This document shows, piece by piece, positions 18,655 through 21,541 of a stretch of 34,523 nt of DNA (position 1 is the stretch's first letter; the number at the start of each line of letters is the position of its first letter). The DNA is from an uncultured Bacteroidales bacterium (GTDB lineage: Bacteria > Bacteroidota > Bacteroidia > Bacteroidales > UBA4417). The stretch lies in the NCBI GenBank assembly GCA_903822525.1, contig CAIJPI010000154.1:1-34523 (forward strand), written 5' to 3'. Under the pieces are notes generated by a model. The model worked only from the letters and a program-made list of their open reading frames with translations, was not told the DNA's origin and did no database searches. Made by a program: the position numbers and the translations under genes.

Positions 18655-18685
18655 TTGCTGCATAAATAAAATAAGTATACATTTG
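18655..18685 (+). promoter_or_regulatory. Promoter of the riboswitch-TonB receptor unit
   Basis: A TTG at 18655-18657 and TACATTTG at 18678-18685 are separated by 20 bp, a full Bacteroidota promoter. The predicted start near 18692 lies about 30 bases ahead of the FMN aptamer, exactly where it should be. Confidence 0.65.
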
Positions 18686-18721
18686 CACCGGCGATTGTGA
18701 GTTGAATACGAATAAACATCG

Positions 18722-18834
18722 CTTTCTTCAGGGCAGGGTGAAATTCCCGATCGGCGGTACAGTCCGCGACTCCCTAACAAGGATTGAACCGGTTCAGCTC
18801 CGGTACCGACAGTATAGTCTGGATGGAAGAAGAA
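18722..18834 (+). ncRNA. FMN riboswitch (RFN element)
   Basis: The sequence follows the RFN consensus closely: CTTCAGGGCAGGGTGAAATT at 18726, then CCCGATCGGCGGTACAGTCC with GCGA after it, a variable arm at about 18773-18784, the CCGGTACCGACAGTATAGTC block and GGATGGAAGAAG. Closing stem P1 pairs TTCTTC (18724-18729) with GAAGAA (18826-18831). The aptamer senses FMN and normally switches off riboflavin synthesis or uptake genes. Here it lies in the leader of the TonB-dependent receptor gene, 119 bases before its start codon, with a terminator hairpin between. Confidence 0.96.
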
Positions 18835-18900
18835 TAATGATTCATGATGCATGCTGTTCAGGCATGTGTTATAGTGTGTCTTTATTTTTTATTCTCATTG

Positions 18901-18928
18901 GCCTTGAAGAATACTTCAGGGCATTTTT
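18901..18928 (+). terminator. Riboswitch expression platform: intrinsic terminator
   Basis: GCCTTGAAG (18901-18909) pairs over all 9 bases (one G-U) with CTTCAGGGC (18914-18922), closing an AATA loop, and is followed by ATTTTTG. It lies between the FMN aptamer and the receptor ATG, so FMN binding most likely causes premature termination. The right arm equals the aptamer 5' strand at 18726-18734, so the left arm could pair with either. Confidence 0.85.
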
Positions 18929-18952
18929 GTATTACTAACTTTATTAATACGG

Positions 18953-21541
18953 ATGATGAATAAAATAATAATTCTGCTGCAGGTAAGCGTATTGATAATT
19001 CTTTTCTCAGGCAAGCTTCTGGGGCAGGAACTCAGAGTAAAAGGTATAGTGGCCGACCGGGCAACAAATGAAACAATTCCGGGTGTTACTGTAAAGGTTG
19101 AAGGAATGGCTTCAGGAACGGTTACAGGAAACGAGGGTGCATTTGAATTAAGCGTAAACGTTGAAAGCGTAAATATTCAATTCTCACATATCTCATATAA
19201 CCCTATCAAATTAAAGGTATTAAAGAAATCCGGGTCTGTAATTGATATGGGTGTAATCGCCCTCGATTCCAGGGCTGTTGATCTCGACGAAATAAAAATC
19301 ATTTCTTCATTCGTAACCGACCGTAATACTCCTGTAGCTGTGTCAACAATACGGGCACATACCATCGAACAGAAAACGGGCAACCAGGATTATCCCGAAC
19401 TTCTTAAAATGACACCCGGTATCTATGCAACCAAAGAAGGAGGCGGTAGTGGTGACGACAGGCTGACATTGAGGGGATTCCAGCAGGAAAATGTTTCACT
19501 TCTGCTCAATGGGGTTCCGGTAAGCAGCATGGAAAACGGGCTTGTTTACTGGTCAAATTGGGCCGGCCTCAGTGATGCTACCGAAGCAATACAGGTCCAG
19601 CGCGGACTTGGGGCATCACGTGTAGCAATGAATTCGGTTGGGGGTACCATCAATATAATTACAAAGTCCACATCAGCAACTGCTGGCGGAGCAATACGCT
19701 ACAGTCTTTCCGACTATGGTAACAGTAAGACAATTGTAAGTTTTTCAACAGGTAAAATGAAGAACGGAACTTCACTTACATTCCTGGGTTCGCGCACTGC
19801 CGGACCGGGTTTTGTTGATGCCACGTATGTAAATGGCTGGGCATATTTTTTAAGTCTGAGTCGCGAATTTGGCAAAAAACAACGCCTGGTATTTACTGCT
19901 ATGGGATCACCCGAAAAACATGGGCAGCGTAACTATGGTATGAGCCAGGCCGATTTTGAAAAATTCGGGCTAAAGTATAACCGGAACTGGGGGACTTATA
20001 ATGGTGAAATTCTTAGCCTTTCGGAGAATTTTTACCACAAACCTCAGATAAGCCTGAATCACTATTGGAATATCTCGCCCAAGGCATTGCTGGCAACTTC
20101 GGCTTATGTTTCATTTGGGAAAGGCGGAGGCCGGTACACAGAGGTATTTAACTATGGTAAGCCAACATGGGATTACAGGCGAAACAATCAGATTGATTTT
20201 GACCAGGTGTTTCTGACTAATTCAGGCAATGCCGAATCAGCAGCACTTGCTGACGGATCGATGGTACAAGGATTTTCAAAGAATATACTTACCAATTACA
20301 GGGCCGACCATTACTGGACCGGTTTGATAAGTTCGCTCACAATCGATGTAAATGAAAATGTAAAAATTACTGCAGGTATGCATGCCCGCAAATTCCGCTC
20401 GCACTTATATGAGGAAGTAAGTAACCTTATGGGTGGAAATTTTTGGGTGGAACAATACGCCTGGTCGCTGGCAGGTGTAAGCGGGCGTAACCAGATTAAA
20501 AGGAAGGGCGATAAAATAAATGTCGATAACTATTCCATGATCAGTTATGGGAATCTTTTCGGGCAGGCTGAATATAAAAAGGGCAGATACCTTGCTTTTC
20601 TGGCAGCTACTGTTTCGGGAACGCATTACAGGCGCGAAGACCCTTACAATTACATTCAAAACCCACTTAGTGAACCTGTTGCCAAAGTTGGTTTTGATAT
20701 AAAAGCAGGTGAAGGATATAAAATAGGGAGATTTGGCAATGTATATGCAAACGCAGGATTCTATTCGCGCGAACCATACTATAAATTTGTATTTGTTAAT
20801 TTTTCAAATACAGTCGCCCGCGATCTTCGTAATGAGAAGATTACTTCTGTGGAAGCAGGGTATACATTTGATAACAACAAAATCTCCGCCCGAATAAACC
20901 TTTACTATACATTCTGGAAGGATAAGTCTGTTTTGTCGCGCGAAAATATTCAACTTGCTGATAGTACCCTGACACGTTCACTTGTAAGAGGTTTAAATGC
21001 ATTGCACCAGGGTATGGAAGCAGAGTTAAGCTATAAAGTACTTCAAAATCTGACTTTGTCTGCTACTGCGTCACTTGGCAGCTGGATATGGCAGAACGAC
21101 GTTTCAGCGACTTTATACAATGATAACCAGGTGTTGGCCGACAGCATGCAGGTATACGCCAAAGGACTGTTTGTGGGCGATGCTCCTCAAACCCAGCTTG
21201 GACTATCGGCTGAATACAACACCAGCGATGGGTTCCGGTTTTCGGCCGATTGGGTGTTTTATGACCGATTGTATGCCAGTTTCGATCCGGTGAACCGGAA
21301 CAATGCCGCCGACCGTATGCAGCCCTACCGTATTCATTCGTATTCCATGCTCGATTTTTATGCTGCTTATAATTTGCTGATAAAACAATTCCCTGTTTCA
21401 TTTCAGCTGAGTTGTCAGAATGTGTTTAATAAAGAAACCATTATACGGGGTGACGATGGCGCAGGTCACAATCTTGATTCTTTCACCGGATTTTGGTCAC
21501 TGGGCAGAACCTATAATATTTCAGCAAAAATTAGTTTTTAA
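18953..21541 (+). CDS. TonB-dependent outer membrane receptor, probable flavin importer
   Basis: The 862-residue precursor has a signal peptide (about 1-24, ending LLGQ), a CarboxypepD_reg-like domain (about 27-110, VKGIVADRATNETIPGVTVK), a plug domain (about 120-240, including LTLRGFQQENVSLLLNGVPV and GGTINIITKS) and a 22-strand-type barrel ending in the terminal Phe of NISAKISF. Such receptors import scarce ligands across the outer membrane with TonB energy. Its leader carries an FMN riboswitch, so the ligand is probably riboflavin, FMN or a flavin precursor. That is inferred from regulation only. No SusD partner, inner-membrane flavin transporter or rib gene lies next to it. The start is the first of two consecutive ATGs. 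Confidence 0.9.
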   Translation: MMNKIIILLQVSVLIILFSGKLLGQELRVKGIVADRATNETIPGVTVKVEGMASGTVTGNEGAFELSVNVESVNIQFSHISYNPIKLKVLKKSGSVIDMGVIALDSRAVDLDEIKIISSFVTDRNTPVAVSTIRAHTIEQKTGNQDYPELLKMTPGIYATKEGGGSGDDRLTLRGFQQENVSLLLNGVPVSSMENGLVYWSNWAGLSDATEAIQVQRGLGASRVAMNSVGGTINIITKSTSATAGGAIRYSLSDYGNSKTIVSFSTGKMKNGTSLTFLGSRTAGPGFVDATYVNGWAYFLSLSREFGKKQRLVFTAMGSPEKHGQRNYGMSQADFEKFGLKYNRNWGTYNGEILSLSENFYHKPQISLNHYWNISPKALLATSAYVSFGKGGGRYTEVFNYGKPTWDYRRNNQIDFDQVFLTNSGNAESAALADGSMVQGFSKNILTNYRADHYWTGLISSLTIDVNENVKITAGMHARKFRSHLYEEVSNLMGGNFWVEQYAWSLAGVSGRNQIKRKGDKINVDNYSMISYGNLFGQAEYKKGRYLAFLAATVSGTHYRREDPYNYIQNPLSEPVAKVGFDIKAGEGYKIGRFGNVYANAGFYSREPYYKFVFVNFSNTVARDLRNEKITSVEAGYTFDNNKISARINLYYTFWKDKSVLSRENIQLADSTLTRSLVRGLNALHQGMEAELSYKVLQNLTLSATASLGSWIWQNDVSATLYNDNQVLADSMQVYAKGLFVGDAPQTQLGLSAEYNTSDGFRFSADWVFYDRLYASFDPVNRNNAADRMQPYRIHSYSMLDFYAAYNLLIKQFPVSFQLSCQNVFNKETIIRGDDGAGHNLDSFTGFWSLGRTYNISAKISF

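Follow-up and report, generated by a model that had tools for sequence, protein, structure and literature searches.

The stretch of DNA analysed here (the window) comprises 34,523 nucleotides from the genome of an uncultured Bacteroidales bacterium and contains an FMN riboswitch followed by a gene for a TonB-dependent receptor (Table 1). Our reading of the window's genes agreed with the first-pass annotation that the receptor is the sole gene between the riboswitch and a hydrogenase. Behind the receptor, other loci of the same genus carry a serine dehydratase gene or genes on the opposite strand. The hydrogenase was considered as a partner of the receptor and rejected, and we place it outside the riboswitch-receptor unit because the same-genus loci differ at this point.

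Table 1 Features of the riboswitch-receptor locus (positions in the window)
Feature	Position	Strand	Evidence
TAnnTTTG box TACATTTG, promoter element of Bacteroidota -7 type	18678..18685	+	pattern match
FMN riboswitch aptamer (RFN element, RF00050)	18720..18838	+	cmscan 107.3 bits, E 2.9e-24
5' strand of the aptamer's closing helix CTTCAGGGC; alternative partner is the terminator's 5' arm	18727..18735	+	minimum-energy fold
Terminator-like stem-loop, then T run	18901..18922	+	terminator scan, leader folds, aligned position
TonB-dependent receptor, 862 aa; CarboxypepD_reg-like domain, plug, barrel; predicted outer-membrane flavin importer	18953..21541	+	Pfam, AlphaFold, clade, genome context

The riboswitch leader and the receptor

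The aptamer matches RF00050 over model positions 1-138 of 138, above the Rfam gathering cut-off of 66.2 bits, so that the full RFN element claimed by the first-pass annotation stands, with a trivial shift of its start (18722 in that annotation). It is the only RF00050 match in the draft genome, which is 93% complete. As to the consensus promoter also claimed there, a TAnnTTTG box, which we take to be the Bacteroidota -7 promoter consensus, is found 41-48 bases ahead of the same aptamer point in 13 of 14 aligned leaders (the window, 12 others of its genus and genome G314), and the pattern has 25 matches across the window's + strand. A sigma-70 scan of the region gave no surplus over shuffled sequence, and that reading was dropped as probably the wrong promoter type.

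The terminator predicted after the aptamer was recovered as a stem followed by a T run. Three terminator-like sites were found in the region, compared with 0.5 expected from shuffles, and the stem ahead of the T run has energies of -8.7 to -14.9 kcal/mol in 13 leaders of the genus and -7.5 kcal/mol in that of G314. In the minimum-energy fold of the window's leader (-70.2 kcal/mol, z -2.98), the aptamer contributes its 5' strand to a helix with the terminator's 5' arm; when the closing helix of the aptamer is enforced, the terminator forms instead (-65.4 kcal/mol). The leader is therefore predicted to adopt mutually exclusive antiterminator and terminator structures, as an expression platform does. 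These two folds, computed with the ligand energy excluded, have the look expected of a transcription switch that would be off when FMN is present.

The receptor contains CarbopepD_reg_2 and Plug domains (PF07715, 54.8 bits), and no barrel model scored above threshold in the Pfam scan. AlphaFold, applied to the receptor and 22 relatives from named genomes, returned a TonB-receptor fold for the window's protein (pLDDT 82.8, pTM 0.78), and the plug match together with this predicted fold supplies the plug and beta barrel of a TonB-dependent receptor. The protein belongs neither to the SusC/RagA family (TIGR04056; 52.9 bits against a cut-off of 368.25, N-terminal part only) nor to the TonB-B12/BtuB family (TIGR01779; 35.3 against 599.7 bits, plug only). 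The best solved match in Foldseek was PqqU with PQQ (E 1.4e-38, 14% identity), but FecA, Fiu, and FhuA match the model nearly as well, so the structure points to a TonB receptor and does not point to flavin. Sequence searches of protein families and of solved structures gave matches at the level of the plug, mostly to siderophore receptors. One could thus imagine that the receptor imports another substrate, for instance haem or a ferric siderophore, with flavin status setting how much of it is taken up. Flavin metabolism is tied to iron metabolism, and in the available portions of two studies on Vibrio cholerae riboflavin lowers the expression of tonB1 and other iron-uptake genes (PMC5816637, PMC6041382). 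Nevertheless, this explanation is very improbable, as it leaves unexplained both the tie to the loss of riboflavin synthesis and the two exchanges with rib genes that are presented below.

Riboswitch distribution and riboflavin synthesis genes

In a sample of the class (295 genomes, including nine others of the same order), the riboswitch was found in the window's own genome only. Among 41 close relatives, the own genome included, it occurs in 19, namely 13 of the 16 genomes of the genus and six of the 25 others. We then have 85 riboswitches in 84 genomes, 83 of these above the cut-off, in a set of 393 genomes of the order; the large searches were run with the stricter filters of Infernal, at the cost of weak matches. 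In the order set, 32 riboswitches stand ahead of ribD and the rib operon and 13 ahead of ribB, and all 45 are in ribH-positive genomes. A further 38 stand upstream of receptor genes, and 37 of these are in ribH-negative genomes, including that of the window. Since ribH had no match in 82 of the 393 genomes, the receptor-linked riboswitch is present in 37/82 ribH-negative and 1/311 ribH-positive genomes (Fisher p about 8e-28, uncorrected for relatedness). These counts include G309 as well as G587, whose riboswitch is cut and, at 28.5 bits, falls below the cut-off. Two riboswitches were left unclassed: that of G565, at a contig end, and that of the ribH-negative G451, which precedes another cut gene, a frame with CarboxypepD_reg domains.

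The sole ribH-positive genome with a receptor-linked riboswitch, G518, has a second riboswitch on its rib operon. In its receptor locus (L191/L219), the riboswitch is followed by a broken copy of the receptor, then by a second copy that is intact, and then by a nucleotide pyrophosphatase. The receptor-linked form is spread over 15 family codes. Both forms occur, with the ribH state matching, in three genera (g164, g229, and g268), while G518 combines both forms with ribH. This spread over families and genera offers a partial answer to the problem of relatedness.

A foldable stem ahead of a T run was found at 31/45 receptor loci, 26/32 rib-operon loci, and 6/13 ribB loci. The copy of the aptamer strand within the terminator was counted with a loose motif and no shuffle control at 22/45, 9/32, and 3/13 of these loci, respectively, and we put it forward for the genus of the window alone.

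Neither ribH nor ribB was matched in any of the 16 draft genomes of the genus, the window's own included, or in G314 and G329, the other receptor-linked genomes among the 41 relatives. Both genes are present in the four genomes of this group whose riboswitch faces rib genes, and the two models found their targets in 14 of 14 control genomes. The riboflavin kinase gene ribF was matched in all 41. Because ribH and ribB had no match and ribF is present, the members of the genus should be riboflavin auxotrophs able to convert riboflavin into FMN and FAD, a prediction for which the absence of rib genes is read from draft genomes. The locus therefore places a vitamin riboswitch directly upstream of a receptor in a host that seems to lack the genes to make the vitamin. 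According to the available part of a 2026 preprint, riboflavin synthesis is highly conserved in Bacteroidales, whereas ribH went unmatched in 82 of the 393 genomes sampled here.

In three genomes of the genus (G303, 64% complete; G306, 97%; G308, 90%), ribH, ribB, and the riboswitch were all without a match. Of the 82 genomes of the order set that are ribH-negative, 44 had no riboswitch match, and in one more, G451, the riboswitch precedes the other cut gene mentioned above. Other routes to flavin must therefore exist. Two flavokinase matches were observed in 12 of the 16 genomes of the genus. In L335 (G000:C119, 20-8754), a second FAD synthetase/riboflavin kinase gene is the last gene of a hydrogenase cluster that also encodes an iron-only hydrogenase, a NuoF-like iron-sulfur subunit, an iron-hydrogenase/histidine-kinase protein, a response regulator, and a Rex-like repressor.

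The receptor clade, cassette exchange, and accessory genes

When a profile built from 25 riboswitch-linked receptors was searched against the order set of 393 genomes, 38 matches exceeded 950 bits; they lie in 37 genomes, of which 36 are ribH-negative. This ranking by itself is biased, since the profile was trained on riboswitch-linked receptors. Among 80 homologues from named genomes, which partly overlap the order set, 28 loci carry the riboswitch; it lies directly ahead of such a receptor in 26, ahead of the broken copy in L219, and ahead of the rib operon in L221. Twenty receptor loci taken from the order set at which no riboswitch had been recorded proved to have none, and an Rfam scan of ten loci of riboswitch-free homologues found nothing.

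Phylogenetic trees gave the same picture. In a FastTree phylogeny of 174 rows, 68 of the 70 riboswitch-labelled receptors and two rows with a cut upstream region form one clade with a support of 100. An IQ-TREE analysis, thinned to 55 representatives by removing near-identical rows and those of unknown state (such as G551, whose upstream region runs off the contig), grouped 33 of 34 riboswitch-linked receptors with an SH-aLRT of 99, and this clade has no riboswitch-free row inside. The exception, the riboswitch-linked receptor of G357, falls in a sister lineage; the intact G518 copy was labelled "tandem2". The four to five label changes in the FastTree phylogeny trace to an identical G518 row labelled in two ways, to second copies, and to G357. 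The first-pass annotation had proposed to test whether TonB receptors linked to RFN elements form one clade and had named a clade mostly without RFN as speaking against a flavin importer, and the trees came out in favor of the importer on both counts.

The riboswitch-free homologues show a different arrangement. At 35 of 56 named loci, including some of Flavobacteriaceae, a gene of one sequence cluster is found close to the receptor, in most cases 2-38 bases downstream of it; neither of two examples (L234 8555-10231 and L241 8533-9657) has a Pfam match. The receptor and the cluster gene may constitute another, putative, receptor/partner pair.

Two pairs of related loci represent natural cassette swaps on the basis of their alignments. 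In genus g229, the ribH-positive G482 has the order riboswitch, ribD, ribE, ribBA, ribH, receptor-2, whereas G382, with no ribH match, has riboswitch, window-type receptor, receptor-2. Across 612 residues, the two receptor-2 proteins (that of G482 being cut) share 91% identity, and the DNA is 82% identical upstream and 91% identical in the riboswitch, while the middle gives no alignment. Similarly, L221 carries rib genes and L220 a window-type receptor between shared flanks (71% identity upstream, 73% in the riboswitch, and 73% over 5.5 kb downstream). The strongest reason to think that the receptor supplies the same product is that it occupies the place of the synthesis genes under the same sensor. 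The shared position extends beyond the two pairs because an NlpC/P60 gene, identified by Pfam on one example, ends less than 300 bases ahead of the riboswitch at both types of locus (9/45 receptor loci and 4/32 rib-operon loci).

The linkage could also be a relic, in which the riboswitch once faced a rib operon whose genes were deleted, leaving a receptor that merely adjoins it. Two riboswitch-rib operons (L221 and L198) are indeed trailed by another receptor gene. However, both swaps show an extra receptor between the switch and its old neighbor, and the pairing has been kept across the 15 family codes, which makes a relic extremely improbable. We consider it most likely that the receptor is an importer that replaced the synthesis genes of vitamin B2, which its host has seemingly lost.

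Some of the riboswitch loci encode additional functions. A second receptor with a type I phosphodiesterase/nucleotide pyrophosphatase behind it is present in L220, L239, L256, and G518, and in cut form in G505 and G382; in L221 such an enzyme follows the receptor that trails the rib operon. Three of these enzymes match PF01663 with about 300 bits, and one is related to eukaryotic ENPPs and to a bacterial NPP of known structure. Nucleotide pyrophosphatases of this type can split FAD into FMN and AMP. This hints at the use of FAD by the second receptor. By extension, the window's receptor itself might carry FAD, another flavin dinucleotide, or bound flavin, with cleavage in the periplasm before uptake across the inner membrane. 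FAD (about 785 Da) exceeds the usual porin limit and riboflavin (376 Da) does not, which, like the second receptor and PF01663 enzyme at several loci, would favor such a carrier. However, enzymes of this type have broad substrates, and they go with the second receptor or the sister lineage. We regard a carrier of this kind as unlikely, though well within consideration, and as a variant of the flavin-importer reading whose probability it partly shares. Because the window has no match to the pyrophosphatase or to a second such receptor, riboflavin is most likely the ligand there, with FMN or FAD as possible alternatives.

For the inner-membrane step, no ECF S-component scored above the cut-off in the 41 relatives (11 weak matches). 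A PnuC-like family is present in 31 of them, both ribH-positive and ribH-negative. The PnuC-like gene of the window's genome adjoins a gene with an AAA_28 domain, read as a NadR-like kinase; given this neighbor and its presence regardless of ribH, it was rejected as a flavin partner. An Rfam scan of six loci around PnuC-like genes and the second ribF found nothing. In G429, a nucleoside:H+ symporter gene (L138 3507-4811; PF03825, 410 bits) begins 23 bases behind the riboswitch-linked receptor and is a candidate inner-membrane flavin carrier, at one locus among those examined. In G314, an MFS gene lies 708 nt behind the receptor. Three genomes of family code f78 encode a 471-residue protein 17-37 bases behind it (L144 3842-5257, L152 1853-3268, and L154 3829-5244); the one scanned has no Pfam match.

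A predicted flavin-uptake regulon

Taken at the level of genes and genomes, the locus is very probably a flavin-uptake regulon with a single gene, in a Bacteroidales bacterium auxotrophic for riboflavin. The single clade and the genomes without riboflavin synthesis genes support the outer-membrane flavin importer that the first-pass annotation had put forward. The riboswitch, the terminator, the alternative folds, the lack of matches to ribB and ribH beside a ribF, the clade, and the cassette swaps all come from the sequences; the response to FMN, the ligand, and transport by the receptor are what we infer from this context. At low FMN, the 5' strand of the riboswitch would pair with the 5' arm of the terminator, allowing read-through and synthesis of the receptor, which would use TonB energy to draw scarce flavin (most likely riboflavin, possibly FMN or FAD) across the outer membrane. 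RibF would then convert riboflavin into FMN and FAD, and FMN would close the aptamer, let the terminator form, and shut off the receptor. In broader terms, and with somewhat better than even chances, this would be the first dedicated outer-membrane flavin transport system, in which the clade replaced rib genes as a cassette under the same riboswitch in several lineages, and a second receptor with a periplasmic pyrophosphatase lets some of them scavenge FAD.

RibU, RibXY, and other riboflavin transporters under FMN riboswitches act at the inner membrane. As described in the accessible part of a 2013 survey, they share the FMN riboswitch and vitamin uptake with the window's locus (PMC3766115), whose target is instead an outer-membrane receptor. 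Riboswitches upstream of TonB receptors have been described for B12 and thiamin, as far as the available excerpts show (PMC5317091, PMC2211319). The thiamin receptor under a TPP riboswitch (omr; BT2390 in Bacteroides thetaiotaomicron) likewise combines a cofactor riboswitch with a downstream TonB receptor (PMC5317091, PMC2211319), but, in a comparison by description, the riboswitch class and the ligand differ. BtuB under a cobalamin riboswitch has the same architecture and logic according to the partial texts (PMC5317091, PMC11162775), although the TonB-B12 model matches the plug of the window's receptor only. PqqU (YncD), the PQQ importer of E. coli, is a TonB receptor for a redox cofactor in the available sections of two papers (PMC12124388, PMC11658791); at the low identity given above, and with near-equal TM-scores for FecA and others, no shared substrate is implied.

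According to the available text of the 2013 survey, Bacteroidaceae, Mycobacteriaceae, and Cyanobacteria were the only groups examined in which no FMN regulon was found; the regulons comprise seven biosynthesis and five transporter orthologues, and the word TonB does not occur in that text (PMC3766115). In the accessible part of a 2007 metagenome survey, seven FMN riboswitches all stand ahead of rib genes (PMC2211319). Riboflavin and flavin are absent from the accessible text of a 2024 review of TonB receptors (PMC11658791), as are TonB and the outer membrane from the text of a 2015 catalogue of bacterial riboflavin transporters. Among the matches listed, the main texts of the open-access literature held no flavin-regulated or flavin TonB receptor, and in the available portions of open-access papers containing both "FMN riboswitch" and "TonB", the named riboswitch targets are riboflavin genes, never a TonB receptor.

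From a biological perspective, TonB-dependent import across the outer membrane is known for B12, thiamin, and PQQ, and the window's locus adds a predicted case for flavin. If this is true, auxotrophs that depend on flavin cross-feeding would have an importer open to testing, and the locus would be a clear example of how synthesis can be exchanged for uptake in evolution under one regulator.
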